DNA from: a virus
Strand: one strand, 5' to 3'
Virus record (IMG/VR): IMGVR_UViG_3300029319_007200
Location: 1-27,710 of that record
DNA length: 27,710 nucleotides
In this document: positions 1,499 through 23,660 of the stretch, one piece after another
Layout: each line of letters opens with the position of its first letter
Numbering within the stretch: position 1 is the stretch's first letter
Made by a program: the position numbers and the translations under genes
Notes under the pieces: generated by a model
Database searches by the model: none
Told to the model about the DNA's origin: nothing
What the model saw: only the letters and a program-made list of their open reading frames with translations

Positions 1499-2961
1499 CA
1501 ACAAAAAAACTTGAAGACATGGCCGCTGAAAGAGCTGTGATTGCAGCACTTTGTCAATACGGTCTCGACGCCTACCTAGAAATAGACTTTATACAAGCTG
1601 ATCATTTTACAAATGAAATGAACCAGCTTATCTTTAGTTGTGTTCAAAAGTCTATATTTGACTCTTCAAAGGTAGAACTGTCTTCAATACTTTCTATTGC
1701 GAACGATCTTGGTATTTATGATCAAATCAACACTAAAGACGAAATAGGATTTATTAGATCGCTATTTAACTTTCCAATATTGAAAGACAATATAGCGGTT
1801 CATGCGTCAAAACTGGCAAAGCTCAAATTGGCAAGAGATCTAAAGAAGACACTCAAAGCGTGTGAAAAACATCTAGATTCAGTCACTGGCGATGAAGACA
1901 TCATGGACGTAATATCTAAGGTTGAAGAGCCAATCTTGGACGCTACGGGGGATATCTATAAAGGATCTAGTAAGCAGACAGAGCTGATTGGCGAAGATCT
2001 AGACGACTACGTTCAATACCTTATAGACAACCCTTCTGATTTTGCTGGTATCCCAAGCGGCTTCGATAGATTTGACGTAGCTATTGGAGGTGGATTGAGA
2101 AGAAAGTGCGTTGATCTAGTCGCCGCTCGACCAAAGGTTGGTAAGTCTATGTTTGGAGACGCTGTTGCTATGCATGTCAGCAGCGAATTAAACATACCAG
2201 TGTTAGTTCTTGATACCGAGATGTCCAAGAAAGACCACCACAATCGTATGCTCGCGTGTTTGTCTGGTGTAGAAATTAACAATATAACGACCGGAAGATT
2301 TGCCGAAAGTGAAATTGAAAAAGAAAAAGTATTAGCCGCCAGAGACAAACTAAAAGAAATACCGTACCATTACATTAGTATTGCCGGAGAGTCTTTTGAG
2401 AATATATTAAGTCAAATGCGAAAGTGGATATATCAGCACGTTGGCTTTGACGATAACGGACAGACAAAGGATTGTCTAATTGTATATGATTATCTTAAAC
2501 TCATGGGATCTGAAGGCATCAGCTCTTCAATGCAAGAATATCAAGTGCTGGGCTTTCAAATAACCAAGCTGCATAATTTCATGGTAAAATACGATGCTCC
2601 ATGCTTGGCGTTTGTGCAACTAAACAGGGACGGTATAACCAAAGAGTCCACTGACGTGGTTTCTGGATCAGACAGACTTATATGGCTCTGCACGAGTTTT
2701 TCTATCTTCAAGCTCAAGTCCGATGAAGAAATTGCCGACGATGGAGTGGATCATGGAAATAGAAAGCTTGTCCCGGTTGTTGCTAGGCACGGAGAGGGTC
2801 TAGACGACGGCGACTATATCAGTATGAAGATGTTTGGTAAGTACGGAAAAATTGACGAAGGCATGACCAGAAATGAGATACATGTTGAAAACAGATCTAG
2901 AAATGAAGGTTTTGAGATAGATGAAGACGTTAACGAAGAATCAGATATCTCAGATATGTGA
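1483..2961 (+). CDS. dnaB: Replicative DNA helicase, DnaB type
   Basis: A 492-aa ring helicase expected to unwind the fork 5'-3' with ATP. Residues 10-115 resemble the DnaB N-terminal domain (AAERAVIAALCQYG). Residues 185-460 are the RecA-like motor. It contains the P-loop RPKVGKS at 216-222, a DnaB-style acidic segment LDTEMSKKD at 243-251, Walker B LIVYDYLKLM at 332-341, and FVQLNRDG at 377-384, which matches the SQLNR-type motif of the family. The length is near that of bacterial DnaB. The C-terminal 30 residues are very acidic. The start ATG overlaps the zinc-ribbon gene, and the primase gene begins inside its last 41 bases, so helicase and primase are probably made together. Confidence 0.93.
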   Translation: MSSKITTKKLEDMAAERAVIAALCQYGLDAYLEIDFIQADHFTNEMNQLIFSCVQKSIFDSSKVELSSILSIANDLGIYDQINTKDEIGFIRSLFNFPILKDNIAVHASKLAKLKLARDLKKTLKACEKHLDSVTGDEDIMDVISKVEEPILDATGDIYKGSSKQTELIGEDLDDYVQYLIDNPSDFAGIPSGFDRFDVAIGGGLRRKCVDLVAARPKVGKSMFGDAVAMHVSSELNIPVLVLDTEMSKKDHHNRMLACLSGVEINNITTGRFAESEIEKEKVLAARDKLKEIPYHYISIAGESFENILSQMRKWIYQHVGFDDNGQTKDCLIVYDYLKLMGSEGISSSMQEYQVLGFQITKLHNFMVKYDAPCLAFVQLNRDGITKESTDVVSGSDRLIWLCTSFSIFKLKSDEEIADDGVDHGNRKLVPVVARHGEGLDDGDYISMKMFGKYGKIDEGMTRNEIHVENRSRNEGFEIDEDVNEESDISDM

Positions 2962-3967
2962 AAATCTGTTTGAGAGATTGCCAGAAATGCTTAGGGCGCT
3001 TGATATAGATTATGTTGAGCATCCTAATAGATATGCTTTCGCATGTCCTGTACACGGTGGAGACAATCCAGAAGCCTGCTGTATCTTTACAGACGGATTA
3101 ACATCCAAGGGGAACTGGTCTTGCTGGACTCAGCACTGCGAAGAAGATTTCACAAGCAGTCTTTTGGGGTTTGTTCGCGGCACTCTTTCTCATCAAAGAA
3201 GTCGCAAGGTTTCATTGAATGAAGCTGCCGCATGGTGTGCGAATCTTTTTAATATGAGCATTGAAGATTTGGATAACATAGAAGAGCAAAAGCAAAGAAG
3301 GCTCAATGTGCTTGATATTTTTAATAAAAAGATAGAGAGAGCTACGCCTAGTATATCCAGAGAAGAAATAAGGTCTAAAATAAATATACCTTCAAATTAT
3401 TATATTGGTCGTGGATTTACCAGAGAAACATTAGATATATTTGATATTGGAGAATGTTCTGCAAAAAAACAGCCAATGTCAGGAAGAGTTGTGGTTCCAG
3501 TGTATGATGAGCACTATAACTATGTAGGATGTGTCGGCAGATCTACGAATGAATCATTACAACCAAAATGGCTGCATAGCAAGGGATTTAAGAAATCAGT
3601 TCTATATGGTTTGAACATAGCTTCAGAACATATCAGGAAAAGCAAATCTGTAATTTTAGTCGAAGGACAGGGAGATGTTTGGAAGATGCATCAGGCCGGT
3701 CTTAAAAACTGCGTTGGTATTTTTGGATCAAGTATCAACGATGACCAACTCCTGCTGTTAGAACAAAGTGGAGCACTCAATCTTGTTATACTTACAGACT
3801 CAGACGACGCCGGAGAAAAGGCGTGCCAACAAATAGTTAAAAAGTGTGGAAGAAGATTTAACTACCATCGGCCAGAAATTTCAACTAAAGATGTTGGCGA
3901 CATGAGCATAGAACAAATTAAACAAGAACTTTATCCTCAATTGAAAGGTTTATTTAATGAAGAGTAG
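2921..3967 (+). CDS. dnaG: DNA primase, DnaG type
   Basis: A 348-aa primase that should make RNA primers for the polymerase encoded downstream. The N-terminus carries a CHC2-like zinc site: C42-P-V-H45 followed by Cys near 53-54, 68 and 73. The central region (150-230) resembles the DnaG RNA polymerase N-subdomain. The TOPRIM part is clear, with E248 in VEGQGD and D293/D295 in LTDSDDAGEKA, the metal-binding acidic residues. It is shorter than bacterial DnaG (about 580 aa) and lacks an obvious C-terminal helicase-binding domain, as in many phage primases. It overlaps the helicase gene by 41 bases and the kinase gene by 11. Confidence 0.92.
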   Translation: MKTLTKNQISQICENLFERLPEMLRALDIDYVEHPNRYAFACPVHGGDNPEACCIFTDGLTSKGNWSCWTQHCEEDFTSSLLGFVRGTLSHQRSRKVSLNEAAAWCANLFNMSIEDLDNIEEQKQRRLNVLDIFNKKIERATPSISREEIRSKINIPSNYYIGRGFTRETLDIFDIGECSAKKQPMSGRVVVPVYDEHYNYVGCVGRSTNESLQPKWLHSKGFKKSVLYGLNIASEHIRKSKSVILVEGQGDVWKMHQAGLKNCVGIFGSSINDDQLLLLEQSGALNLVILTDSDDAGEKACQQIVKKCGRRFNYHRPEISTKDVGDMSIEQIKQELYPQLKGLFNEE

Positions 3968-4862
3968 AATACTTGCATTTGCAGGAAGCAAGCAAGCGGG
4001 AAAAAGTACCTGTAGTAACTTCCTGCATGGATATCAAATGCGGTCCCACAACGTCGTAAGCGACTTCGGAATTACCGAAAACGGTGAGCTTGCCGTTACT
4101 ACTAATATAGCAGGAATAGATGGAAAAGTCGAGCGAGGAAACGCGATTCTAGATACCACTAGAACAGATGTTGAATTTGCAGATTGGGCTGCTTTTAATA
4201 TGTGGCCGTATGTAAAGAGCTATTCATTTGCTGCACCACTTAAGCAGATCGCTGTGGAATTATTCCAAATGGGACTAGACCAAGTGTATGGAAGTGATGC
4301 TGACAAAAATACCGCATCTATTTTCAGGTGGGAAGAAATGCCGGGAGTTATAACAGATGAAAATCTCGTTAAACAAAAAGAGATTAAAAAGCTTATAGAT
4401 TGTGGAACTTTAAAATATCACAAGCGTGGCAGAATGAGCGCTCGTGAATTCCTGCAATTTTTAGGAACAGATGTTTGTAGATTTATATACGAAGACATCT
4501 GGCAATCGAGACTTGTAAAGGATATATCTATTGAACAACCCCTTTTGGCTATTGTAGATGACTGTAGATTTCCAAACGAGGCGGATGCAATACTTAATGC
4601 CGGTGGTAAGGTTGTCAAGCTAACTAGAAGTCCCTACAAAGATAAACATTCTAGCGAGTGCGCATTATCTTCATACGATAAGTTTGATGCCGTTATAGAT
4701 AACGCGAACCTGTCTATACATGATACAAATATTCAAATAATCAACCTCTTGAATGAGTGGGGCTGGTTGGGCGCTGAGATTGCTCCGGCTCCTGAACCAG
4801 AAGAAAAACCTCCAGAGCCACAGTTGGTTGGTGGTATTCATAAATTTAAAGAGGACAACTAA
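3957..4862 (+). CDS. Deoxynucleoside monophosphate kinase (T4 gp1-like)
   Basis: A 301-aa P-loop kinase. The ATP site is GSKQAGKST at 10-18. A GRMSAREFLQFLGTDVCR block at 158-175 and VDDCRFPNEADAI at 200-212 match the conserved core of T4 gp1-type dNMP kinases, which phosphorylate dNMPs to dNDPs for phage DNA synthesis. Residues 25-75 look like an extra insertion relative to a minimal kinase. After the kinase fold there is a Pro/Glu-rich tail near 266-281 of unknown use. The gene overlaps the primase by 11 bases and shares a TAATG with the next gene. Confidence 0.85.
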   Translation: MKSRILAFAGSKQAGKSTCSNFLHGYQMRSHNVVSDFGITENGELAVTTNIAGIDGKVERGNAILDTTRTDVEFADWAAFNMWPYVKSYSFAAPLKQIAVELFQMGLDQVYGSDADKNTASIFRWEEMPGVITDENLVKQKEIKKLIDCGTLKYHKRGRMSAREFLQFLGTDVCRFIYEDIWQSRLVKDISIEQPLLAIVDDCRFPNEADAILNAGGKVVKLTRSPYKDKHSSECALSSYDKFDAVIDNANLSIHDTNIQIINLLNEWGWLGAEIAPAPEPEEKPPEPQLVGGIHKFKEDN

Positions 4863-5881
4863 TGATAGTTACATATGTTCGCAGTTCATCGTATAATAAT
4901 TACGATTATTGCCAGATGCAGTACTTTATAACGTATGCTCTGGGTCATCAATCAACATCCGGCAAAAAAGCACAACTGGGAACAATAGTGCATAAGGTCA
5001 TGGAGTGCCTTGGCTCCTGCAAGAAAAAACTACAGGAAGGACAAAAGACTGGGATATCTGTCACCGATGATGGAATAGGTGTTATTGAATTTTCCGAGAG
5101 AAAACTGTATACAAAAAAGTTCGTTAAAGATCTCCTCGACAGAAGCTACGAATACTATACAAAAGACTGTGTTCACAACTACACCGGAGCTGATATGAAG
5201 TTCTGTAAAAAACTAGTTGATGACGCCTTGGAATACAATGATGGTCAATTTGATCCGCGAAACAGAAATGTTGTCGCTTCAGAGCCTCAGTTTGACATTC
5301 CAATCGAAGAAGAATGGGCTAAGTATAAATATAAAATGCCCAACGGTGAAGTCGTCGAGGGACAACTTGCAATTAAGGGAACTATTGATTTAGTGACTCA
5401 GGTTGACGATGGCGTTATAGAAGTCGTGGACTGGAAAACGGGAAGAAGGCTAAACTGGGCAACCGGAGAAGAAAAAACTTACGAAAAACTACTTGACGAT
5501 CCGCAACTCCTACTGTATAATTATGCTGTATCAAAACTTTTTCCTGAATACAAACAGGCAATCATGACGATATACTTCATCAGAGACGGAGGACCATTTA
5601 GTATGTGCTTCGACAAATCTGATCAAGATAAATTTTTGGGCATGTTAGAAAAGAGATTCAAGCAGATCAAACACAATGAGTTTCCAAAACCTATATCACA
5701 AAAAAGGTCACATTTTAAATGTACAAAGCTGTGCCACTTTTACAAAAATAACTGGCCGGGAACAAACATTTCAATGTGTGAACATGTCGAGGAACACTTG
5801 AAGGCTTTTGGCCATGACGATACGGTAAAAAGATGCACAAGAGACGGATTTGAAATAGGATATTACGAGGCGCCGGGATGA
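4862..5881 (+). CDS. RecB/Cas4-like PD-(D/E)XK exonuclease with cysteine cluster
   Basis: A 339-aa nuclease of the RecB-like branch (PF12705 type). The motifs run in order: an N-terminal SSYNNYDYCQMQYF segment; H44 in GTIVHKVME; D176 in KGTIDLV; D190-x-K192 in VVDWKTG; and the QxxxY motif Q215-LLL-Y219. C17 near the N-terminus plus C287, C291 and C306 near the C-terminus match the layout of the iron-sulfur staple in Cas4/AddB nucleases, so a 4Fe-4S cluster is plausible. It probably resects DNA ends during phage recombination or repair. It shares one base with the kinase gene and an ATGA with the next gene. Confidence 0.85.
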   Translation: MIVTYVRSSSYNNYDYCQMQYFITYALGHQSTSGKKAQLGTIVHKVMECLGSCKKKLQEGQKTGISVTDDGIGVIEFSERKLYTKKFVKDLLDRSYEYYTKDCVHNYTGADMKFCKKLVDDALEYNDGQFDPRNRNVVASEPQFDIPIEEEWAKYKYKMPNGEVVEGQLAIKGTIDLVTQVDDGVIEVVDWKTGRRLNWATGEEKTYEKLLDDPQLLLYNYAVSKLFPEYKQAIMTIYFIRDGGPFSMCFDKSDQDKFLGMLEKRFKQIKHNEFPKPISQKRSHFKCTKLCHFYKNNWPGTNISMCEHVEEHLKAFGHDDTVKRCTRDGFEIGYYEAPG

Positions 5882-6768
5882 TCGAACAGAATAAAAAAAA
5901 TTGCGGACTGCGAAAGGGTCGTCTTTCATTAGAAGAGAGGCGACATATAGCAGAGCAGTACGACAGGAAAACACCAATTGAAATAGCTAGAGAGCTTAAC
6001 AGAACCGTTGAGCCGATATTTACATATCTGGATAAAAACATACCGGATTGGAGAAGTTCGTCGCCGTATTTTAGTTGGTCTGACAAGGCGACAACAGAAA
6101 AAACAAGCGATCAAACAAAAGACTTTCATAAGAAAATTTTAGAGCTAAGTAAAACGGCAAACATCTCGTATGTAGAAGCAAAGAGATCTTTAAGAAAGGA
6201 CGAGAATAGTGGTGCTAAAACTATAGAAGATTTAGACAAGCTTGTTGATTCATTGAAGGCCCAAAGAAGTTATGTCAATAGTGTCACAGAAGAGATATCC
6301 AACAATATTGATTATTGGAAAAAAGCGGCTATAGACTGGGCATCTGCGGAACTATCCGACAAACGAAGAGACATAGAAATACAAAGGGCTAGACTACAAT
6401 CAGATATAGTTACAAAGATGAACATGCCGTCTCCACCGGCACCCACCATGACCGCAGAGGGTTTTTTAAAAACCGATAAAGAGTTTTCCGGTATTTACTT
6501 TGCATGGAGTGAGGGTAAGGTGGTATATGTAGGGAAATCTAATAACATCCTTAAGAGAATTAAAAAACACAAAAGCTCTGGAAAGGTGAGGTCTGAAATG
6601 CCTTTATCTTGGCTTGAGTTTCCCATGCACCAGCTTTACACAACAGAATGTTTTTATATATGGTTGCTGTGTCCAGAACTTAACGGAGAAGCCATCTTGG
6701 ACTCGCACTACATACAAGACGAACACGAATCGTTTACAGAGGAAATACATAGGAAGCTAGACAAATGA
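5878..6768 (+). CDS. HTH plus coiled coil plus GIY-YIG nuclease fusion
   Basis: A 296-aa protein with three parts. Residues 15-52 look like a helix-turn-helix (LSLEERRHIAEQYDR, then PIEIARELNRTVEPIFTYL). Residues 80-180 are long charged helices, probably a coiled coil. Residues 203-272 form a GIY-YIG domain: G205-I-Y207, Y217-V-G219, R227, E257 in TTECFYIW, and P266 with N269 in CPELNGE. These are the residues expected of a working GIY-YIG nuclease. The HTH may target the nuclease to a sequence. It lies between two PD-(D/E)XK genes with 4-base overlaps on each side. It could be a repair or homing nuclease or a host-DNA nuclease; which is not decided by sequence. Confidence 0.8.
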   Translation: MIEQNKKNCGLRKGRLSLEERRHIAEQYDRKTPIEIARELNRTVEPIFTYLDKNIPDWRSSSPYFSWSDKATTEKTSDQTKDFHKKILELSKTANISYVEAKRSLRKDENSGAKTIEDLDKLVDSLKAQRSYVNSVTEEISNNIDYWKKAAIDWASAELSDKRRDIEIQRARLQSDIVTKMNMPSPPAPTMTAEGFLKTDKEFSGIYFAWSEGKVVYVGKSNNILKRIKKHKSSGKVRSEMPLSWLEFPMHQLYTTECFYIWLLCPELNGEAILDSHYIQDEHESFTEEIHRKLDK

Positions 6769-7265
6769 TTGAAATACAAATAACTGAAGACATGAAAAAA
6801 CGAGCTTGGAGAAAGGCTCGTGAAATGGGTGAAATCAATAACTCGATTACAAAAGGCGACGGAAACATTGCCGGATTTTTAGGTGAAGAGGTAGCTAATC
6901 ATATAATTAAAGGTGACATAAATAACACGTATGATTATGATATAATAAAAGACGATGTTACATATGATGTCAAAACAAAAAGATGCACTAGCGAACCAAA
7001 ACCTTATTACGAATGTTCCGTTGCCGCCTTTAACACTAAACAGAAGTGCGACTATTATGTTTTTGTTCGGATAGAAAATATAAACCGTAGATGGACAAGA
7101 GCTTGGGTTCTTGGAGCGATGTCTAAAGACAATTATTTTTCCGATTCGAGATTTTTGAAAAAGGGACAAAAGGATGGTAGCAATGGGTTTTATGTAAAGG
7201 CGGATTGCTATAATATGGAAATTAAGAAACTTCAATCATTGGAAGAACTATGCCCGCAGAAGTAG
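6765..7265 (+). CDS. Putative PD-(D/E)XK-fold nuclease
   Basis: A 166-aa protein with features of a restriction-endonuclease-like fold. GNIAGFLGEEVANHII gives a helix with E41. DDVTYDVKTKR then gives D68-x-K70, followed by a strand-helix region ending in CDYYVFVRIEN, typical of the fold's core. The basic residues R13, R16 and K17 near the N-terminus could touch DNA. No family name comes to mind. It overlaps the GIY-YIG gene by ATGA and the exostosin-like gene by 16 bases. It is one of several nucleases in the replication block, so a repair or host-DNA degradation role is likely but unproven. Confidence 0.65.
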   Translation: MIEIQITEDMKKRAWRKAREMGEINNSITKGDGNIAGFLGEEVANHIIKGDINNTYDYDIIKDDVTYDVKTKRCTSEPKPYYECSVAAFNTKQKCDYYVFVRIENINRRWTRAWVLGAMSKDNYFSDSRFLKKGQKDGSNGFYVKADCYNMEIKKLQSLEELCPQK

Positions 7266-8158
7266 TAGACCTAAACAAAGAATTTCATCTAGGCAATGGG
7301 TTCACATTAGAAACAGCGAAAAGACTAGCGTTTCTACTTAGCGATCAGTACAGAATTATATTGAAATATGATCTAGGCGGTGATATGCCGTCATACCATG
7401 ATGACAAGTTGAATATTGTATTTTCTACCTCAAGAGAAACCCACGATACGCCAAACGAGTTTTTTAGAAACGATGTATTCTTAATATTTCAACACTACTT
7501 TATGCTTGATGAATGGGGATACCCCATGCCTAATCCCTTGGTGTATCCATTACCGCTTGGAACCTTTAGGGATGTCAATCATAATATTATAAAGCCGCTT
7601 TGTGAAAGGAAGTATGATTTTTCTTTTGTTGGACAAATCCCCCACACCGGAACAAGAGACTGTTTTAAAAGACATCTGGATGCAATAGTAGAAAAGTCTG
7701 AAGGAAAGTTTAAATTTTTCGTTAAATACACAGATGGTTTTTCACAAGGTCTTCCCGCTGAAGAATACATTGAAATACTTTCTGAGTCAAGGGTTTCTCT
7801 GTGCCCACAAGGTGCTCACAGCGATGAAACATTTAGATTCTTTGAGTCGATATTAATGGGTGCCGTACCTTTGATTGAGAGCCTTCCTCGACTTTGGTAT
7901 TATGAATCGGCACCACACTTTAAAACTAAATGGAGAGACTTAGATAGAACGCTGTCACAAGTATTAAACTTTTTACAAACACCAAAATGTCGTAACTTCC
8001 TTTATCAAATTGCCGACTATTGTAATAACGTATTGACACCACAAAATCTTGCAGAACATTTGATGTCAAAAGTTGAAGTGGCAAAAGCAAAAGCAGAACC
8101 TAATAAAAAACATCTTGAAAAAATTAGAAAGAAGTTGAATGAACTGGATACCATTTAA
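7250..8158 (+). CDS. Exostosin-like glycosyltransferase (GT47-type)
   Basis: A 302-aa protein matching the exostosin C-terminal region. It has YPLPLGTF, then YDFSFVGQIPHTGTRDC. The block IEILSESRVSLCPQGA, the ETFRFFESILMGAVPLI segment and WYYESAPHF follow; the S-x-ETFR-FE-x-x-x-G core is the donor-binding part of this family. It closely parallels the protein at 24512-25315, so the two are likely paralogues. The C-terminal 35 residues are a Lys/Ala-rich helix absent from the other copy. It is odd that it sits between nuclease genes and the polymerase, over 4 kb from the glycan array. The acceptor is unknown. It overlaps the polymerase gene by 20 bases. Confidence 0.8.
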   Translation: MPAEVVDLNKEFHLGNGFTLETAKRLAFLLSDQYRIILKYDLGGDMPSYHDDKLNIVFSTSRETHDTPNEFFRNDVFLIFQHYFMLDEWGYPMPNPLVYPLPLGTFRDVNHNIIKPLCERKYDFSFVGQIPHTGTRDCFKRHLDAIVEKSEGKFKFFVKYTDGFSQGLPAEEYIEILSESRVSLCPQGAHSDETFRFFESILMGAVPLIESLPRLWYYESAPHFKTKWRDLDRTLSQVLNFLQTPKCRNFLYQIADYCNNVLTPQNLAEHLMSKVEVAKAKAEPNKKHLEKIRKKLNELDTI

Positions 8159-9734
8159 TTGCAAGACTCACTTTAGCCTATTAAAAGCGTTTTCAAAATG
8201 CGACAAGCTCGCCAAAAAGTGTAAGGAATATGGCTATACCTCCTGCGTTATTGCAGATCTTGAGTGTTTGTCTGGAGCCGTAAGTTTCCACGAGGCGTGC
8301 AGAAAACATGATGTAAAACCAATCTTGGGGTGTGATTTTGGATCATATCTTCTTATTGCCAAAAACAAAGACGGATGGTTTGATTTAATCAAAACAGTAT
8401 CCCACGACGGTCTTGAAGTGCTTCAAGATATTGCCAAGAACGGCAATCTCATTTGCATCACCAACCAATTCCAAAAGGGATATCAAAAGCTTTTTGGTAA
8501 AAACTATTTCTCTTATGGCTATGAAGATCGTGGAGTTTACTATGTCACAAAAGACGAAGCAGAGGCGCACAGGGTTCTTTTGTGTTCTGGGATGAAGGCA
8601 ACACTACCTAAAGTACAGAGTTTAATAAAGTCTGGTGAAAAGGTAGACAATCAACAGTTTTTTGAAAGTGATGATTTTTATCTACCAAGTCCAGAGGAAG
8701 TTAAAGATTCTGAAGAAGATATTAGGCTGATAAATAAAATTTGCGATATGTGCGAAGATTATGAGATTGCATCTAAGCCAATGCTTCCAGAATTTGAATG
8801 CCCGGACGGAATGGATGAAGATGAATATCTGACAGATCTTTGTAGAGAAGGTTGGAAAAACAAGCTTATACCACAGGGTAAAGTTGTCGATCCGTCTATG
8901 AAGCAAGAGTATCTTGAAAGAATTAAAAAAGAACTTGACGTTATATTCAAAGCAGATCTTTCTGGTTACTTTCTCATCGTTCAAGATATCATAAACTTTG
9001 TAAAACAAAAGGGATGGCTTGCTGGTCCCGGAAGAGGATCTGCCGCTGGATGCTTGGTCTCGTATCTTATCGGAGTTACCGAGGTTGATCCTATAGAATA
9101 CGACTTAATCTTTGAAAGATTCTATAATGAAGGAAGAAATACAGAAGAATATATATCACTGCCAGATATTGACATGGACGTTCCAGCCGAATATAGAGAT
9201 GAAGTAATTGACTATATTAGAGAAAAATATGGGCAAGATAAGGTTGGACAGATGATAACATTTGGTAGACTACAAGGTAGAGCCGCACTAAAAGAAGTTC
9301 TTAGAATCAACGATGCAGTTTCATTCATGGAGATGAACAGAATAACAGAGGGGATTCCTGACGAAGCAACGATTTCGGACCAACTTGAACTCATGGAAGA
9401 CAGGTCAATTATTAAGTGGACTCTTGAAAATGAACCAGATGAACTTAAGAACTGGTGCTCTATGGACGAAAAGGGTAACCTTAGCGGCTCTTTAGCCCAT
9501 CTATTTGAACAAGCAATAAAGATAGAAGGCACAAACAAATCACAAGGCAAACATCCCGCTGGAGTAATTATCTCCAAACATACGCTGGCGGATGCGTGCC
9601 CAATGACATTAGACAAAACAGGAGATCCTGTGGTGGCTTTTGAAATGACGGCACTTGAAACTCAAGGGCATGTGAAGTTTGATGTTCTTGGCATCGACTT
9701 ACTTAGCAAGATAATGGATATAGCAAATGAATAA
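8139..9734 (+). CDS. dnaE: DNA polymerase III alpha, N-terminal part (PHP plus palm)
   Basis: 531 aa covering the PHP and palm regions of DnaE. All three catalytic aspartates are here: D343 and D345 in PDIDMDV and D515 in VKFDVLGIDLL, equivalent to E. coli D401, D403 and D555. GPGRGSAAG at 296-304 and HPAGVIIS further on are also conserved. The PHP domain is short and seems degenerate: the start CKTHFSLL lacks one His of the usual HxH, and ADLECLSG lacks the His of the usual DH. The protein ends 17 residues after D515, just before the fingers, which are encoded at 11002-12531. It cannot copy DNA alone, so it should pair with that second protein. Confidence 0.93.
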   Translation: MNWIPFNCKTHFSLLKAFSKCDKLAKKCKEYGYTSCVIADLECLSGAVSFHEACRKHDVKPILGCDFGSYLLIAKNKDGWFDLIKTVSHDGLEVLQDIAKNGNLICITNQFQKGYQKLFGKNYFSYGYEDRGVYYVTKDEAEAHRVLLCSGMKATLPKVQSLIKSGEKVDNQQFFESDDFYLPSPEEVKDSEEDIRLINKICDMCEDYEIASKPMLPEFECPDGMDEDEYLTDLCREGWKNKLIPQGKVVDPSMKQEYLERIKKELDVIFKADLSGYFLIVQDIINFVKQKGWLAGPGRGSAAGCLVSYLIGVTEVDPIEYDLIFERFYNEGRNTEEYISLPDIDMDVPAEYRDEVIDYIREKYGQDKVGQMITFGRLQGRAALKEVLRINDAVSFMEMNRITEGIPDEATISDQLELMEDRSIIKWTLENEPDELKNWCSMDEKGNLSGSLAHLFEQAIKIEGTNKSQGKHPAGVIISKHTLADACPMTLDKTGDPVVAFEMTALETQGHVKFDVLGIDLLSKIMDIANE

Positions 9735-9957
9735 CAAAATATCATCACCAAAAGAAGACTACAAGTCTGTAATTTTTTCTGGCTGCTCGATAGAATCCAA
9801 CGGCGTTTCTATATGCAATCTAGCAGACTTTCTTAAAGGTCTTGTTAGCAACGCCAGATATCAAGTTTGGTCTGACAAGCACAGAACCTACGAGATATAT
9901 TATAACATAGACGAAGCAGTGGACAAATTTTTGCAACTTAAAAATAAAGGTTATTAG
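9727..9957 (+). CDS. Hypothetical 76-aa protein inside the polymerase split
   Basis: A small protein, 76 aa, starting 8 bases before the end of the polymerase N-terminal gene and ending one base before the exonuclease gene. It has two cysteines (SGCSIESNGVSIC), a predicted helix (NLADFLKGLVSN) and an aromatic segment (YQVWSDKHRTYEIYY) followed by a helix. I recognise no family. The tight packing and plausible coding content support a real gene. It could be an accessory factor for the split polymerase or exonuclease, or a leftover of whatever created the split; neither is shown. Confidence 0.6.
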   Translation: MNNKISSPKEDYKSVIFSGCSIESNGVSICNLADFLKGLVSNARYQVWSDKHRTYEIYYNIDEAVDKFLQLKNKGY

Positions 9958-9958
9958 A

Positions 9959-10654
9959 ATGGCGAATTTTAGAGATATTATCGTATTTGACTTTGAAACA
10001 GGTGGGGCTGATCCGTACACATGTCAGCCAACACAAATCGCAGCAGTGGCCATTCACGCAAGAAAACTTGAACTTCAGCCCGGAGGTGAGTTTAATAGTG
10101 AGATGAGACCTATTATTGATGACGAAAAAGCTATTGAGGCTGGTGTTGCCCCTCTAGAAGACAAGGCTCTGGAAATCACAAGGAAGACCAGAAAAGAACT
10201 AGCCAAAGCCCCACTCCCCAAGACCGTCTGGAAAAAGTTTTCTAAGTTTTGCGATCAGTACAACTGGAAAAAGACATCCTACTATGCACCAATTGCTGCT
10301 GGCTACAATATCAATGGATACGACATGCCTATTGTTGAACGAATGTGTCAGCAGTACGGCCCGATTGACGAAAAGAAGGGTCGTCAAAAAATCTTTAACC
10401 CAATCTTCACCATTGATGTCATGCAACATATTTATTGTTGGTTTGAAAACAATCAGGATGTTAAAGGCTACAGCATGGATTACATGCGAGATTATTTTGG
10501 AATGAGTCAAGAGAGCAAGGATAATGCTCACGACGCACTGCAAGACGTTAAGGATACCGCAAATTTGATGATTAAGTTTATGAAGTTACAAAGAAGCTTA
10601 TTGAAAAAAGTAAAATTTGAAAAGGCGTTTGCAAATGGAAACTTGTACGTATAG
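9959..10654 (+). CDS. dnaQ: DnaQ-like 3'-5' proofreading exonuclease (DEDDh)
   Basis: 231 aa with the three exonuclease motifs of the DEDDh family: Exo I D11 and E13 in VFDFETGG; Exo II D122 in NINGYDMP; Exo III H191 and D196 in AHDALQDVKD. These bind two metals to remove mispaired 3' ends. Bacterial polymerase III alpha relies on a separate epsilon subunit for this, so this is likely the phage's epsilon equivalent. An AAAGG site lies 8 bases before its ATG. It lies between the two halves of the polymerase alpha gene. The lysine-rich C-terminal tail (LLKKVKFEKAF) may contact the polymerase, which is only a guess. Confidence 0.9.
   Translation: MANFRDIIVFDFETGGADPYTCQPTQIAAVAIHARKLELQPGGEFNSEMRPIIDDEKAIEAGVAPLEDKALEITRKTRKELAKAPLPKTVWKKFSKFCDQYNWKKTSYYAPIAAGYNINGYDMPIVERMCQQYGPIDEKKGRQKIFNPIFTIDVMQHIYCWFENNQDVKGYSMDYMRDYFGMSQESKDNAHDALQDVKDTANLMIKFMKLQRSLLKKVKFEKAFANGNLYV
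10620..10625 (+). promoter_or_regulatory. Ribosome binding site choosing the ATG of the HNH gene
   Basis: AAAAGG lies 9 bases before the ATG at 10635. A longer reading from a TTG at 10617 is possible, but it has no good site before it, so the ATG is preferred. The site lies within the end of the exonuclease gene. Confidence 0.5.
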
Positions 10655-11009
10655 ATATTCTAAGACTTGTATAAAATGTAAAAAAGTTTATCCCATAGAT
10701 CATTTTGAGAAAAAGAAAAACGAAAAGAACTTCAGGAATGTTTGTATAACTTGTAGAAAGAATGACACAAAAGTTGCACAAAGACTGAAAAAAGAATGGC
10801 TAAAAAATCATGATATGCCAAAATTAGGAGAACCCTGTGAATGCTGCGGAGATTCTACTAAAAAACTAGTTTTTGATCACTGTCACAAAAAAGAAGAATT
10901 CAGAGGTTGGTTATGCGGGAGGTGTAACAGAGCTATAGGGATGATGGGAGATAATATTGAGGGTTTACAAAGAGCAATTGATTATTTGTTGAGGAAAGAC
11001 GATGTTTAA
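10635..11009 (+). CDS. HNH endonuclease of the endonuclease VII type
   Basis: 124 aa from the ATG at 10635. The N-terminal part has a zinc finger of C12-x2-C15 and C37-x2-C40. The nuclease core has C68-x2-C71, the D81-H82-x-H84 motif in LVFDHCHK, and C94-x2-C97-N98 in CGRCNRAIGMMGDN, the signature of the phage endonuclease VII-like HNH family (PF02945). Free-standing members are often homing endonucleases that spread by cutting alleles lacking them. It lies in the split polymerase locus, overlaps the exonuclease gene by 20 bases and ends 8 bases inside the polymerase C-terminal gene. A homing role is therefore the leading idea; junction resolution like T4 gp49 is an alternative. Confidence 0.9.
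   Translation: METCTYRYSKTCIKCKKVYPIDHFEKKKNEKNFRNVCITCRKNDTKVAQRLKKEWLKNHDMPKLGEPCECCGDSTKKLVFDHCHKKEEFRGWLCGRCNRAIGMMGDNIEGLQRAIDYLLRKDDV
10991..10995 (+). promoter_or_regulatory. Ribosome binding site for the polymerase C-terminal gene
   Basis: GAGGA lies 6 bases before the ATG at 11002. An in-frame TGA at 10990-10992 blocks any longer reading, so the second polymerase half must begin here and is translated on its own. Confidence 0.6.
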
Positions 11010-12531
11010 TATTAATAATTTTGAAGACGAAGCGGTTTGGGATTTAATCTGCGATGGGCAGACCAAGGGCGTTTTTCAGCTAGAGTCAAGTCTGGGAAAA
11101 CACTGGGCCAAGCAGGTTAGACCTAGAAACATTAAAGAGCTTGCGGCTTTGATTAGCTTGATTCGTCCGGGATGTCTCAAGGCTAAAGACACAAATGGTA
11201 AGAGCATGACACAGGTTTACGTAGACAGAAAGTCTAACAAGGAGCCCGTTACTTATCCCGATGAAGCCCTTAAAGAATCCCTTTCTGAAACCTATGGCGT
11301 TCTTGTTTATCAAGAGCAGTCTATGAAGATAGCTCAGAAGCTAGCTGGTTTCGATCTTAAGGAGGCTGACGCTTTACGTAAGGCGATTGGTAAAAAGAAG
11401 GCCGATCTTATGGAGAAGGTTAAGAAGAGCTTTCTAGAAGGTTCTGAAAAACAGGGGATTGTAACCGCAGAAGTGGCTGAAGAAATTTTTTCTTGGATTG
11501 AAAAGTCTCACGCCGTATCATACGCAATTAATGCTTACTGGAGCGCCTACTGCAAACTGTATAGACCAGTTTCTTTCTATGTGTCGTATTTAAATCATTC
11601 GGACAGGAAGCCTGACTCCCAGAAAGAACTAAAGGAGCTAATCGTAGACGCTAAGTTTTCAGATATCGAAGTATATCCACCTAGACTTGGAAATCTTCAC
11701 ACCAACTTTTTCCCAACGGATAAGTGTATCTATTTTGGATTGAGGCACATTAAGCATGTAGGCAAAAATGAATGCAAGAAGATAGAGGACATATGCGCAG
11801 AAAATGACATCTCTGAATATTCTTGGATGGACGTTTTAACGAAAGTTATACATGGGGGCAGACTAAACAAAAGGTCTGTAGTGGCCCTGATATCTGTCGG
11901 TGCGTTCAATGGACAAAATAATAAAAAAGATAGACAGCAAATGCTTTATGAGTATGATAGCTGGAGAGACTTAACCTCTAGAGAACAGCAGGCGATAGCT
12001 GATCTTTCAAACAGCTTTGATAAAAATAAATCTCTTTCTGACTGCATATCTGAGATGATGAATGTCACCAAAATAAACAGCAGGAGAATAACAACAGTAC
12101 TAGATATCAAGAACATGTTAGACAATCCTCCGTATGATCTTAAAGACAATATACCATTTTTAGCACAGAGTGAAACAGAATATCTTAGTTACTCACTTAG
12201 CTGTAGCAAGACCGACGCTTTTGATATAAATTTTTCAAGTTCTTTGTGTCGAGATATAGCTAAAGGTGCTATAACAGGTAAGACAAGACTTGCCGCGCAA
12301 ATAAGTACGATTAGGCTGTACAAAACTAAAAATGGAAAGAATCCGGGACAACTTATGGCGTTTGTCACTGCCGAAGATAGTAGTGGCGAGCTAGATTCTA
12401 TAACAGTTTTTCCAGAATCTTATGACAAACACAAGGATATACTTGTTGAAGGAAATACCGTCTTGATGACTGGAGAAATATCTAAAAGAGAAAACACATC
12501 CCTGATTGTGGACAAGGTTTCTCAACTTTGA
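11002..12531 (+). CDS. dnaE: DNA polymerase III alpha, C-terminal part (fingers to OB fold)
   Basis: 509 aa that continue DnaE where the 8139-9734 gene stops. Residues 1-30 (EDEAVWDLICDGQTKGVFQLES) align with the E. coli stretch ending in AVFQLES. Next come ISLIRPG, LVYQEQSMKIAQ and DALRKAIGKKK at 124-133, the fingers residues that hold DNA and dNTP. After IEKSHAVSYAINAY, the usual KFAGYGFN-type segment before KSH is absent. Residues 240-302 form the helix-hairpin-helix region (GLRHIKHVG, RSVVALISVGAFN), and 430-509 the OB fold. Both halves are needed for activity, presumably by non-covalent assembly. The SSB-like gene follows after 10 bases. Confidence 0.93.
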   Translation: MFNINNFEDEAVWDLICDGQTKGVFQLESSLGKHWAKQVRPRNIKELAALISLIRPGCLKAKDTNGKSMTQVYVDRKSNKEPVTYPDEALKESLSETYGVLVYQEQSMKIAQKLAGFDLKEADALRKAIGKKKADLMEKVKKSFLEGSEKQGIVTAEVAEEIFSWIEKSHAVSYAINAYWSAYCKLYRPVSFYVSYLNHSDRKPDSQKELKELIVDAKFSDIEVYPPRLGNLHTNFFPTDKCIYFGLRHIKHVGKNECKKIEDICAENDISEYSWMDVLTKVIHGGRLNKRSVVALISVGAFNGQNNKKDRQQMLYEYDSWRDLTSREQQAIADLSNSFDKNKSLSDCISEMMNVTKINSRRITTVLDIKNMLDNPPYDLKDNIPFLAQSETEYLSYSLSCSKTDAFDINFSSSLCRDIAKGAITGKTRLAAQISTIRLYKTKNGKNPGQLMAFVTAEDSSGELDSITVFPESYDKHKDILVEGNTVLMTGEISKRENTSLIVDKVSQL

Positions 12532-12541
12532 AAGGCTCAAT

Positions 12542-12853
12542 ATGAACGGATGTCACTTTCTCGGAAAGCTAACCGGCGATCCAGTACTTAAGAAATACTA
12601 CAATAGTTTTTTTGTAAACTTCACATTAGAAGTAGAAGAATACAGAAGAGATAAAGATGGTGTAAAAAAAAGAAGAATAGATCTTTTGAATTTTGAAGCT
12701 TGGGACAGTGCCGCAAAAACCATACAACAACGGGCTAAAAAAGATGACATTATGGTGATTGAGGCGATAGCTAGGAATGAGTCGATTAAAGACCCAGATA
12801 CTGTAGTATTTAGGATTACAAACTTTAAAATTATTTCTAAAACAAGGTCTTAA
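12542..12853 (+). CDS. ssb: Single-stranded DNA-binding protein, OB fold
   Basis: 103 aa from the ATG at 12542, which has AAAGG 6 bases upstream; a longer frame from 12506 lacks such a site. The sequence reads like a small SSB: MNGCHFLGKLTGDPVLKKY, then FVNFTLEVEEY, a basic loop (KKRRIDLLNFEAWDSAA) and RITNFKIISK. This order of strands matches bacterial SSB, including the GKLTGDP start and the FEAW segment. It lacks the acidic C-terminal tail that recruits partners in E. coli SSB. It is placed directly after the polymerase and would coat template ssDNA. An alternative is another OB-fold protein. Confidence 0.8.
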   Translation: MNGCHFLGKLTGDPVLKKYYNSFFVNFTLEVEEYRRDKDGVKKRRIDLLNFEAWDSAAKTIQQRAKKDDIMVIEAIARNESIKDPDTVVFRITNFKIISKTRS

Positions 12854-12860
12854 ATAAAAT

Positions 12861-14501
12861 ATGAATAGAAAGAAAAGGATTCTTTTTTGCTCAGAGGCTT
12901 CTTGGTTTTCTACTGGTTATTCGGTATATACTAAAGAGATTCTCACTAGACTAAGCCAGATAGACAATCTAGAGATTGCAGAACTAGCGTGTTACGCAGA
13001 TCCTAACAATCCAATGATAAACTCTGTTCCTTGGAAAGTATACCCTAATAAGCCATTGCCCAGCGATCCGATGTTTGCATCTTACAATGGCAACGTTAGT
13101 GCTCAGTTTGGAGATCACTCATTTAATAATGTACTATTAGACTTTCAGCCAGACATCGTAATGGACATACGAGACTGGTGGATGATTGAGTTTGAACAGA
13201 GGTCTCCTTTTCGAGACTTCTTTCACTGGGCAATTATGCCCACTGTAGATGCGGCACCTCAAGACGTTCAATGGATAAATACATACGCTTCAGCCGATGC
13301 TGTTTTTGCATATTCTGAGTTTGGCAAAAAAACCCTACTAGAACAGTGCGACGATATCAAGTTTATCGACATAGCTTCGCCAGCGGCAAGCAATTTCTTT
13401 TCGCCTGTGCAGGATAAACGACAACACAAAAGCGATATGGGTATTTCTCCTGACACGTTTATTGTTGGGACTGTCATGAGAAATCAAAAAAGAAAGTTAT
13501 ATCCTGATTTATTTAAATCATTCAGGGACTTTTTAGACACGACTCAAGACGATAATTGTTTTCTTTACTGCCACACATACTACCCTGATGTTGGTTGGGA
13601 TATTCCTAGACTATTAGATCAATATGGTTTGTCTAGCAGGGTTTTGTTTACATACAAGTGTAAAAGTTGTGGACACATATCGGTAAATTTCTTTCAAGAC
13701 ACTATACAGTCATGCCCGAAATGCGGAAAGTTTTCAAACGTGCTTGTTGGATTAAGCAACAGCATCAACGAACAAGAGCTTTCTAATATTTACAATCTGT
13801 TTGATGTGTACGTGCAGTACGCAAACAGTGAGGGTTTTGGAATGCCTCAGCTAGAAGCGGCTTACTGTGGTGTTCCTGTTATGTCTACTTACTATTCTGC
13901 AATGGAGTCGGTTATCGACAATATCGGAGGAGTTCCAATAGAGCCTCTTTCATATTATCTAGAGTGTGAAACCGGTTGCAAAAGAGCTGTCCCAGATAAC
14001 AAAAAATTTGTATCTAAACTTATAGAGCTTCATTCGCAGAAAGACAGCCTACCAGAACTGGGCAACGCTGTACGTAATAACGCTTTAAGGAACTACAGTT
14101 GGGACAAAGCCGCAGACGCTTGGGCTAAACACATAGCTACGGTAGAAATAAGAGATCCTCGTGAAACATGGCTCTCTCCACCAAAGATACTAGAGCCCGC
14201 CAGAAGCATACCTTCAAATCTACAGTCAAACGTAGAAAAGGTTAACTTTATATTTAATCATGTGCTACACAAACCAGAGTGGATTGGTAGCTATCTATGG
14301 AAGAAGGTTTTAAAAGACTGCACATTTGGATACAGATGTGAGAATGTAAACAAAGACTTTTATTTTAACGAGTCGCACAAACAATCATTACAATCAAATA
14401 GACCTTTTACTTTTGAAGAGGCGGTGGGAGAAATGGCTTCCTTTAGAGAGCAAATAAACAATTGGGAAAAGGCAAGACTTAACATTAGGCCAAGAGGTTA
14501 A
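12861..14501 (+). CDS. GT4-like glycosyltransferase with inserted zinc ribbon
   Basis: 546 aa, first of the glycan array. It has a GT-B fold: an N-terminal Rossmann half (RILFCSEASWFSTGYSVYTKEI), then a donor-binding half with FIVGTVMRNQKRKLYP and the EX7E motif E324 to E332 (SEGFGMPQLEAAYCG). Between them, residues 267-288 carry C267-x2-C270 and C285-x2-C288, a zinc ribbon that standard GT4 enzymes lack. A C-terminal extension of about 120 residues follows the catalytic part, with no recognised domain. Sugar donor and acceptor cannot be told. It starts 7 bases after the SSB gene, so the array may be read through from the replication genes. Confidence 0.88.
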   Translation: MNRKKRILFCSEASWFSTGYSVYTKEILTRLSQIDNLEIAELACYADPNNPMINSVPWKVYPNKPLPSDPMFASYNGNVSAQFGDHSFNNVLLDFQPDIVMDIRDWWMIEFEQRSPFRDFFHWAIMPTVDAAPQDVQWINTYASADAVFAYSEFGKKTLLEQCDDIKFIDIASPAASNFFSPVQDKRQHKSDMGISPDTFIVGTVMRNQKRKLYPDLFKSFRDFLDTTQDDNCFLYCHTYYPDVGWDIPRLLDQYGLSSRVLFTYKCKSCGHISVNFFQDTIQSCPKCGKFSNVLVGLSNSINEQELSNIYNLFDVYVQYANSEGFGMPQLEAAYCGVPVMSTYYSAMESVIDNIGGVPIEPLSYYLECETGCKRAVPDNKKFVSKLIELHSQKDSLPELGNAVRNNALRNYSWDKAADAWAKHIATVEIRDPRETWLSPPKILEPARSIPSNLQSNVEKVNFIFNHVLHKPEWIGSYLWKKVLKDCTFGYRCENVNKDFYFNESHKQSLQSNRPFTFEEAVGEMASFREQINNWEKARLNIRPRG

Positions 14502-14507
14502 TACACA

Positions 14508-15593
14508 ATGAAGATACTCTATATAGGAAACTATAGAGATGGAACGGGATGGGCTAACGCTTGCATCAACAATATTCTGGCATTAGATTCTGTCGGCGTA
14601 GATATTGTGCCTAGAGCTATCACATTTGAAAATCAACAACAGGATTATCCCAACAGGATAAAAGAACTTGAGTCAGCATCGGCTCAGGGTTGCAATGTAT
14701 GTATACAGCACACGCTTCCACATCTATACTCCTACGATTCAAGATATAAAAATATAGGATTTTTGGCTGTCGAAAGTAGCAACTTCAAGGATACTGGGTG
14801 GCAACACAATATTAACTTAATGGATGAACTTTGGGTTCCAAGCCATGCAGCTAAAATATCCTGCGAAAATAGTGGAGTAAAGATTCCAGTTAAAGTTGCG
14901 CCACACTCGCTAGATATGTCAGAATATAAGAGCAGTACCGCAGGCAACAAGGTACAGGAAATGCTTTCAACATTTAACTTCGCCTTCATTGGAGAATTTA
15001 TAGAAAGAAAAAATCTACAGGCACTGATAAAAGCGTTTCACATGGAGTTTCAATTTCAAGAGCCTGTTAATTTATTTATAAAAACATCAAAGGTAGAATT
15101 ACCCCAGATGCAAGAGTTTGTCAAACACATAAAGTCTGGTTTAAAAATACGAAATAGATATAGAGAAGAGATTATAATAACCGGCAGATTAGAAAAAGAA
15201 GACTATATATCTGTATTGTCACAGTGTCACTCTTTTGTCATGCCGAGTAGAGGTGAAGCGTTTTGTATACCAGCCTTAGAAGCTATGGCTTTAGGAATTC
15301 CAGTCATTTACACACAAGAAACTGGCATGGATGACTTTTGCGTAGGTAGTGCCGTACCATCAAAAGCAACGCCCTGCTTCGGGGCCGTTACAACGCTACC
15401 AAATCTTGACACAGCAAATAGCGATTGGCGTGAGATTGATATAACAGCATTGCGCGCAGCCATGAGACAGGCATACCAAACATGGAATTCTGACGAGGAA
15501 AAAATAAACAGAGAAAAAGTTATGGACGTAGCCAAAACTTACGATCACAAACCGATTGGCTATAAGATGAAGGAGTTACTAAATGACAGCTAG
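14508..15593 (+). CDS. GT4-like glycosyltransferase
   Basis: 361 aa with a GT-B fold. The N-terminus is MKILYIGNYRDGTGWANA. The C-terminal half has FAFIGEFIERKNLQALIKAF, in which R and K are typical donor-phosphate contacts. The EX7E motif runs from E250 to E258 (SRGEAFCIPALEAMALG). It should use a nucleotide sugar and retain anomeric configuration, as GT4 enzymes do. The substrate is unknown. It overlaps the next transferase gene by 11 bases. Confidence 0.88.
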   Translation: MKILYIGNYRDGTGWANACINNILALDSVGVDIVPRAITFENQQQDYPNRIKELESASAQGCNVCIQHTLPHLYSYDSRYKNIGFLAVESSNFKDTGWQHNINLMDELWVPSHAAKISCENSGVKIPVKVAPHSLDMSEYKSSTAGNKVQEMLSTFNFAFIGEFIERKNLQALIKAFHMEFQFQEPVNLFIKTSKVELPQMQEFVKHIKSGLKIRNRYREEIIITGRLEKEDYISVLSQCHSFVMPSRGEAFCIPALEAMALGIPVIYTQETGMDDFCVGSAVPSKATPCFGAVTTLPNLDTANSDWREIDITALRAAMRQAYQTWNSDEEKINREKVMDVAKTYDHKPIGYKMKELLNDS

Positions 15594-16611
15594 AGCAACA
15601 CCAGAAGCTGTAAGATCTATCATGAGAAGACCCCACGTATTGAAAGACCTTGAGTACGGGCGTGAAAAGCTTAACATACTAACATTCTGCACTCATGAAA
15701 GATACGAACAGCAACTATGTAAAACAGGACATAATTTCTATGCAATAAATCATGGGAAAAGATGGGATACCGACTATGGACAGATTCCAGACAACTACTG
15801 TGAGATGGACGGCGTTCCTCGTGGCTATGTTGATATAGACTTGATATTGTGTCACACGCCTTGTGAAAGATTAGCCATTTCTCAAAAAATAAAGCATGAC
15901 CTAAATATTCCTGTGATACTACATACTCACACACTACCTGACATAAGGGTAGACGTGTCTGATCAAGTGCAAAGATTTCAAGAAGCCTCGTCTTGGGTTG
16001 ATAAAAGGTGTTTCATATCCGACTTCAATAGAAGTGCTTGGGGTTGCAATAAAACAAATGCTGAGTATATAGAACATGGCATTGATTGTGATTTTTGGAT
16101 GGACTTTGAAGAAACGCAAAGAGAAAATGTTTGCTTGTCTGTGGTTAATGACTGGCCAAACAGAGACTGGTGCTGTGGTTGGGAACTGTGGAAACAAACG
16201 TCTCAAAACCTACCACTTCGAGTTTTTGGGAAAAGTCCCGGATTTTCACAACCGGCAAATTCCATAGAGCACTTAAGAGAAATTTACCATAAGTCTAGCA
16301 TATTTTATAACACTTCTTTACATTCTCCTGTACCTACAGTGCTGATGGAGGCTATGGCTTGTGGATGTGCAGTTGTTTCTACTTCAACATGCATGATCCC
16401 GGATATTATCGAGAATGGTAAAAACGGTTTGATCTCCAACGATCCCGCCGAACTGAGATCGATGCTAGAGAGACTGCTAGAGAATCCTGAAATGGCTCGC
16501 GAGCTAGGCAAGAAGGCACAAAAAACCATACTTGAAAAATACAATAAAGAACAATTTTTGACCAACTGGAATAATTTATTTTATTCAACCATCAGAGACT
16601 ATAAGGAATAA
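15583..16611 (+). CDS. GT4-like glycosyltransferase, first EX7E Glu missing
   Basis: 342 aa. The C-terminal half matches GT4: PLRVFGKSPGF, then VPTVLMEAMACGCAVVST with E256, and PDIIENGKNGLISND. The first Glu of the EX7E motif, expected at 248, is Ser (HSPVPTVLME). The enzyme may use a variant site or be weak. The N-terminal half contains GYVDIDLILCHTPCERLAIS and IPVILHTHTLPD, consistent with a GT-B acceptor domain. It overlaps the gene before it by 11 bases and leaves 2 bases before the next. Confidence 0.82.
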   Translation: MTARATPEAVRSIMRRPHVLKDLEYGREKLNILTFCTHERYEQQLCKTGHNFYAINHGKRWDTDYGQIPDNYCEMDGVPRGYVDIDLILCHTPCERLAISQKIKHDLNIPVILHTHTLPDIRVDVSDQVQRFQEASSWVDKRCFISDFNRSAWGCNKTNAEYIEHGIDCDFWMDFEETQRENVCLSVVNDWPNRDWCCGWELWKQTSQNLPLRVFGKSPGFSQPANSIEHLREIYHKSSIFYNTSLHSPVPTVLMEAMACGCAVVSTSTCMIPDIIENGKNGLISNDPAELRSMLERLLENPEMARELGKKAQKTILEKYNKEQFLTNWNNLFYSTIRDYKE

Positions 16612-16613
16612 TA

Positions 16614-17036
16614 ATGAGAATATACCTTTCTTCATCAGAACCAGCGGATAAGTCATATAAATGGGCTTCTAATATCGTAGCGTTTAATGACATGGTTCAG
16701 ACGAGCGAAGCTACCTCTGTCGTGTGCGATCAGTTTCTTTCTTCATTTTCGTATAGCGAGATTCCAGAGGTTTTAAAAATTATCGCGTCCAAAATGAGAC
16801 TTCAGTCGCAGATTACAATAGTTCATCCCGATATTGTCGTGTTGTCACAACGCATGTCTAGAGAAGAAGTCAACGAGCAGAATTTCAACGATATACTTTT
16901 TAGAAACGAAGCAATCAGAAGCGTATGCTCTACTGAGACAATACAGTCATTAATTCCAGACAACCTTGAAATTACACAGGGAGTCTTTGATGTGACTACA
17001 TCCAACATGGTCATAAAAGCTAGGAGGGTGAGGTGA
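16614..17036 (+). CDS. Methyltransferase-like protein lacking the SAM motif
   Basis: 140 aa resembling the second half of a class I methyltransferase: SVVCDQFLSSFSYSEIPEVL, then an I-x-I-V-H-P-D strand (residues 67-73) and a C-terminal strand pair ending MVIKARRVR. The glycine-rich SAM-binding loop of the first half is not seen. The protein is therefore either a truncated, non-catalytic relative or unrelated. It sits between a GT4 gene and a GT2-like gene, overlapping the latter by 4 bases. Confidence in the gene is good; confidence in the relationship is low. Confidence 0.6.
   Translation: MRIYLSSSEPADKSYKWASNIVAFNDMVQTSEATSVVCDQFLSSFSYSEIPEVLKIIASKMRLQSQITIVHPDIVVLSQRMSREEVNEQNFNDILFRNEAIRSVCSTETIQSLIPDNLEITQGVFDVTTSNMVIKARRVR
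17022..17027 (+). promoter_or_regulatory. Ribosome binding site for a GTG start
   Basis: AGGAGG lies 5 bases before the GTG at 17033, which overlaps the preceding stop as GTGA. It supports the GTG as a real start. Confidence 0.65.
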
Positions 17037-23658: not shown

Positions 23659-23660
23659 CA

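Follow-up and report, generated by a model that had tools for sequence, protein, structure and literature searches.

Here we have analysed a 27,710-nucleotide (nt) virus fragment from IMG/VR (27.7 kb, hereafter the window; all positions are window positions), in which the gene for the alpha subunit of DNA polymerase III (Pol III), DnaE, is found as two halves. The initial annotation, made from the sequence alone, had described a DnaE split between palm and fingers with three genes nested in the gap, and we have confirmed all five genes, positions included. They are given below together with a small deletion in the second half.

8139..9734, + strand: N-half of DnaE, 531 residues, with PHP domain (degenerate metal site), palm with catalytic D343, D345 and D515, and thumb (PF02811; PF07733, E 3e-72)
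9727..9957, + strand: u76, a conserved small protein of 76 residues with an 8-nt overlap with the N-half stop; predicted a-b-b-b-b-a fold (AlphaFold2 (AF2) model)
9959..10654, + strand: DEDDh 3'-5' exonuclease, probable proofreading subunit, 231 residues (PF00929; phrog_192 'DNA polymerase exonuclease subunit')
10635..11009, + strand: endonuclease VII/HNH-type gene, guest element between exonuclease and C-half (PF02945, E 4e-15)
11002..12531, + strand: C-half of DnaE, 509 residues, with fingers (PF17657, E 1e-45), helix-hairpin-helix and a probable OB fold
~11503..11508, + strand: deletion junction in the C-half, with 24 nt missing in frame (8 residues, SNRYAFNK, gone by comparison with relatives)

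In profile matches to solved structures, the N-half covers residues 6–625 of Taq alpha and the C-half covers it from residue 651, so the break sits between palm and fingers. The linker between the KFDxLG and fingers motifs has a median of 33 residues in unsplit proteins and 29 in the split halves summed; hence hardly any sequence has been lost at the split, as the initial annotation had supposed. The N-half ends 16 residues past D515, where 17 had been counted. All three catalytic aspartates lie in the N-half, and they are kept in 105/105 split representatives, among which the fingers motifs FQLE, YQEQ and RKAIGKK are nearly invariant. The C-half does have a start of its own: GAGGA stands just 5' of its ATG at 11002, and an in-frame TGA lies upstream at 10990–10992. 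Its probable OB fold in the window matches PF01336 with 26.9 bits, at a cut-off of 27. The PHP metal-site motifs are degenerate in 76 split representatives, intact in 28 and partly kept in 1, the window being of the degenerate type; such a site fits the presence of a separate proofreader. Overall, the sequences show that a single ancestral dnaE was divided in the palm-fingers linker, and that the phage clade descending from it has separate, tightly packed or overlapping half-genes around a DEDDh exonuclease gene.

In L071, L081, L215, L296, L298 and L345, a CGC-containing extension of ~36–52 residues opens the C-half before the fingers motif.

Distribution and descent of the split

We have scanned IMG/VR and bacterial genomes, keeping the 80 best-scoring loci of each scan, and have sorted the loci by reading-frame and profile searches. 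The first set showed the same break in 352 of 454 loci (188 distinct). In all, 676 loci have been collected, with 520 split, 126 unsplit and 30 partial, and the split ones represent 294 distinct loci. Chance or an assembly error, the latter being a concern of the initial annotation, cannot account for a break that recurs so often. The gap between the halves has a median length of 968 nt, and in the shortest cases (~663–678 nt) the exonuclease gene is alone inside. Gene ends overlap by 4–20 nt in most loci; where exonuclease and C-half abut, the C-half normally starts within the last codons of the exonuclease, with an overlap of 20 nt (54 loci), 8 nt (25) or 11 nt (25).

In the trees, the split DnaE form an exclusive group with no unsplit member, both with 105 representatives (support 0.99) and then with 168 (support 0.98). 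The same grouping is obtained, at weak support, from the N-half or the C-half alone (0.21 and 0.68, respectively). Unsplit phage and bacterial DnaE fall outside, and no continuous DnaE, which the initial annotation had named as a finding that would speak against it, has been found inside the clade. The lowest identity within the clade is 38%, while the window protein shares at least 45% identity with every split representative and no more than 37% with any unsplit one.

One split locus stands apart. In L553 (3241–6515), DnaE lies in two frames broken at the same linker, with a 39-nt gap and an ATGA start/stop overlap. Its position in the tree is outside the clade, and either a frameshift or a second, independent break may explain it.

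The large terminase of one clade member (L464, 1402–3390) is ~27% identical to the nearest isolate phages, so the split-DnaE lineage, a large group of aquatic phages, appears to be uncultured. Terminase-like genes were found with phrog_2; searches with PF07068 and PF17289 gave no match, and PF07068 is uninformative since it gave none in control genomes either. Among isolates, only Bacteroides phage DAC19 and its sister phages match the exonuclease, and in the 16.6 kb examined DAC19 has no DnaE half next to that gene.

Evidence on the function of the halves and the gap genes

Compared with the two closest relatives, the ratio of non-synonymous to synonymous substitution rates (dN/dS) is 0.05–0.07 (N-half), 0.04–0.05 (C-half) and 0.03 (exonuclease). 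Purifying selection acts on u76, on the exonuclease and on each half of DnaE, and it is strong for the halves. The distances of N-half and C-half correlate (r 0.86), which shared descent alone would also give.

We have found one N-half in each of 36 viral records (24 + 12; 30–224 kb), that of record G033 being itself interrupted. One match to PF17657, the C-half fingers, is present in each of the 24 records run with this profile. No second family C polymerase, PolA or PolB (PF00136) was found in the 36 records, and a second full-length polymerase, which the initial annotation had feared might make the halves pseudogenes, has not been found in them. Since no other DNA polymerase has been found in these phages, the split replicase appears to copy the whole virus lineage. 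The neighbours of the split DnaE are helicase, primase, exonuclease and SSB genes; a beta clamp (PF00712) was not found in the 21 records searched.

As for the gap exonuclease, its active-site residues D11, E13, D122, H191 and D196 are kept in 53/53, and its AF2 model has a mean predicted local distance difference test score (pLDDT) of 94.4. By sequence, it gives only weak matches in PDB. It lies between the halves in 293/294 distinct split loci, L553 being the exception, and in the last scans, which gave 48 unsplit viral loci, it is absent from the stretches examined around all of these. It is probably the proofreading subunit of the split polymerase.

The small protein u76 occurs in the gap of 145/188 distinct loci of the first set and of 147/294 overall, and thus it is not essential to the arrangement. 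Its AF2 model (mean pLDDT 82.9) weakly resembles YkuJ, with Z 6.3, which may be merely a common arrangement, and Foldseek found no match with E < 0.001 for the model in PDB or BFVD. The theta subunit of the E. coli Pol III core is helical. We have rejected u76 as a theta: the lengths are equal, yet the u76 model is mixed alpha/beta.

Interpretation of the split

We consider it highly probable that the two halves are translated separately and assemble non-covalently into a replicative family C polymerase. N-half and C-half would be translated apart, probably by translational coupling, and would meet through the palm-fingers interface with no covalent joint. The assembled halves would serve as the replicative polymerase of the phage clade with the exonuclease as its proofreader. 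The endonuclease VII of the window arrived later, as a guest at a gene junction. Non-covalent assembly and, as one of two options, an exonuclease within the same machine had been proposed in the initial annotation, and both are favoured indirectly: by the near-constant presence of the exonuclease in the gap, by the lack of an intein or Rfam intron match at the junction, and by two records with halves ~7 kb apart. A further step, which we regard as unlikely, is that the exonuclease also helps to hold palm and fingers together in an obligate multi-part replicase, the order N-half, exonuclease, C-half being kept as assembly follows translation.

On the other hand, several points weigh against the main reading, a replicase assembled from two halves with a separate proofreader. 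First, the window C-half is without the eight fingers residues SNRYAFNK that are otherwise conserved. They are present in L002 and L003, the closest relatives of the window, L002 being 94% identical, and the gap in the window is flanked by AAGTC repeats. The window copy may therefore be damaged or mis-assembled, i.e., the deletion may be real or an assembly fault; our statements on function rest on the clade and not on the window copy. Second, the fold of the exonuclease matches RNase T, DinG, the PolC exonuclease and E. coli epsilon about equally, with close Z values. Third, only top-scoring loci from each scan entered the trees, so an unsplit sister may possibly have been missed. Fourth, no viral record is rated at least 90% complete, and a second polymerase could be missed. 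Finally, we infer assembly of the halves and proofreading here from genes and single-protein models.

The deleted stretch includes the FNK of the FNKSH motif, which is present in 161/167 long C-halves and is interrupted by an intein in 4; the pattern fails in two, the window and L219, the captured stretch of the latter not showing this region. The window deletion, seen in no other long C-half, ends at K|SH, the position of a split intein in some relatives; it could be the scar of a repair or come from faulty assembly.

How the break arose is a separate matter, and a possible origin, compatible with non-covalent assembly, is that an ancient homing element, a group I intron or an intein, once sat between palm and fingers, lost its splicing and left two genes. 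We hold this only tentatively, somewhat below an even chance. The dnaE of Alicyclobacillus phage KKP_3916 (L689) has three or more breaks, and group I intron matches lie at two of them: before DITVDID (E 3.5e-16) and right after KMDFLG (E 1.6e-7; below the family gathering score), the latter being followed by a nuclease-like open reading frame. As this second match lies near the fission point, an old homing intron is plausible as the origin of the split. Other phage dnaE genes are interrupted before PDID and at FNKSH. Against this origin, the clade has no trace of an intron or intein at the junction, the intron site of KKP_3916 lies some residues ahead of the fission point, and this phage may not be a close relative of the clade.

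Further interruptions have been observed within DnaE. The C-half of L125, L128 and L147 is itself divided by a split intein at FNK|SH (by eye from intein blocks), so that their DnaE alpha comes from three genes. In L129, L147 and L296, the fingers hold a contiguous intein, located at RPG|C (by eye), and that of L296 seems to hold an HNH-like stretch. DnaE is also interrupted in or before the PDID motif region in L377 (N-half), L150 and record G033, with no Rfam match in L377 and L150.

A very improbable alternative to non-covalent assembly is that RNA splicing, ribosome hopping or protein trans-splicing joins the two halves again. It is true that phage dnaE genes do carry group I introns, as in KKP_3916, and inteins, as in L125, L128 and L147 within the clade. 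However, the N-half terminates directly at the junction and the C-half begins without an intein block, none being found at the N-half or C-half ends listed; the Rfam search of the window gave no match, hence no intron match at the junction; and the gap is filled with overlapping, conserved genes. No frame fusing either half to the exonuclease exists among the 188 loci. Moreover, the gap of two records (G022/G023; loci L304 and L314) contains ~6 kb with six more genes, located between u76 and the exonuclease. These two loci had first been scored as partial, with no N-half within 5 kb; it was found ~7 kb upstream, both having enough flank. With ~7 kb and six extra genes separating the halves, splicing is very unlikely.

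Even less credible is that the halves are remnants in decay, with the phage being copied by the polymerase of its host: the loss of eight conserved residues from the window C-half would fit, but dN/dS is ~0.05 in both halves, the catalytic residues are present in 105/105 split representatives, each of the 36 viral records keeps its one N-half, and the neighbourhood is one of replication genes.

The initial annotation had also put the break down to a homing event. That the endonuclease VII now in the gap caused the split has next to no likelihood: its location in the gap and the splitting of other phage genes by homing insertions (PMC2988022) speak for it, but a gene of this type occurs in only 23/188 distinct loci while the split is constant with or without it, so it should not be the cause, and the inserts differ in family and position; an older homing element, since lost, may lie behind the split, as above.

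In the window, the endonuclease VII gene has taken the place at which the C-half of many relatives begins: its start lies 20 nt ahead of the exonuclease stop, and the C-half start now overlaps the endonuclease VII stop. Its presence at this same site is patchy among relatives. The three gene junctions carry unrelated inserts in other loci, with family and position varying among relatives. From these comparisons, the endonuclease VII, a predicted homing nuclease, is a recent guest at a gene junction. The split replicase is retained, it seems, while its junctions take in guests (nucleases, glycosyltransferases, metabolic cassettes).

In L468 (2011–7912) and L469 (2425–8353, reverse complement), a six-gene, metabolic-looking cassette stands between u76 and the exonuclease; by eye it has aldehyde dehydrogenase-like, aminotransferase-like and dehydrogenase-like members.

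Comparison with known systems and other genes of the window

The initial annotation knew of no description of this arrangement for DnaE. This holds in part: a split minimal Pol III alpha was described in 2021 for some jumbo phages (group 2.2), whose two proteins were proposed to reconstitute the enzyme (PMC7824862). In both cases the family C catalytic subunit consists of two phage proteins (PMC7824862). However, the jumbo-phage form is minimal, with other Pol III domains absent, while PHP, palm, thumb, fingers and helix-hairpin-helix are found here together with a probable OB; its half-genes are far apart, while those here are colinear around the exonuclease gene; it is accompanied by a family B polymerase, while no PolB or PolA has been found here; and it is broken between the NTP-binding and Mg-binding subdomains, while the break here follows the third aspartate (PMC7824862).

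In Aeromonas phages 44RR and 25, gene 43 is split; phage 25 has an associated homing nuclease, and its two gene 43 products, gp43A and gp43B, purify together and show polymerase activity (PMC2988022). As here, a replicative polymerase exists as two polypeptides, but it is of family B, belongs to T4-like phages and has no nested proofreading gene. The gp43 protein has its own exonuclease domain. Cyanobacterial DnaE is likewise encoded by two genes, and its halves are joined by an intein further downstream; the junction here has no intein, whereas the split intein in the C-half of L125, L128 and L147 is near the downstream cyanobacterial site. The E. coli Pol III core (alpha, epsilon, theta) also combines a DnaE chain with a separate DEDDh exonuclease, but its alpha is one chain. 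Finally, marine OM43 phages MEP401 and MEP402 have PolA in two open reading frames with a small unknown one between (PMC10580990). Their polymerase is of family A with the exonuclease domain fused to the N-part, in contrast to family C with a separate exonuclease here (PMC10580990).

We have found no description of a full-domain split family C polymerase with nested exonuclease in the open PMC literature. Split phage polymerases of families C, B and A are thus known, and what seems new is the full-domain split with the nested exonuclease. If the halves work as proposed, a family C replicase can be severed between palm and fingers without losing its ability to copy phage genomes of ~200 kb, and has kept it while the lineage radiated deeply. 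Natural parts would then allow tests of the palm-fingers interface and of the role that the proofreader may have in holding it. For annotation, a replicase should be present in such phages even though no full-length polymerase gene is found.

The remaining replication genes of the window are as follows.

1483–2961, + strand: DnaB helicase, upstream
2921–3967, + strand: DnaG-type primase, upstream
3957–4862, + strand: dNMP (deoxynucleoside monophosphate) kinase, upstream
4862–5881, + strand: exonuclease, upstream and separate from the gap exonuclease
12539..12853, + strand: single-strand binding protein (SSB; PF00436)

The SSB gene lies 3' of the C-half in most loci examined for neighbourhood. 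Upstream of the N-half, the window has a gene matching helix-turn-helix (HTH) and GIY-YIG nuclease families (5878–6768), and several of its genes (7250–8158 and 12861–25312) match glycosyltransferase-type families.

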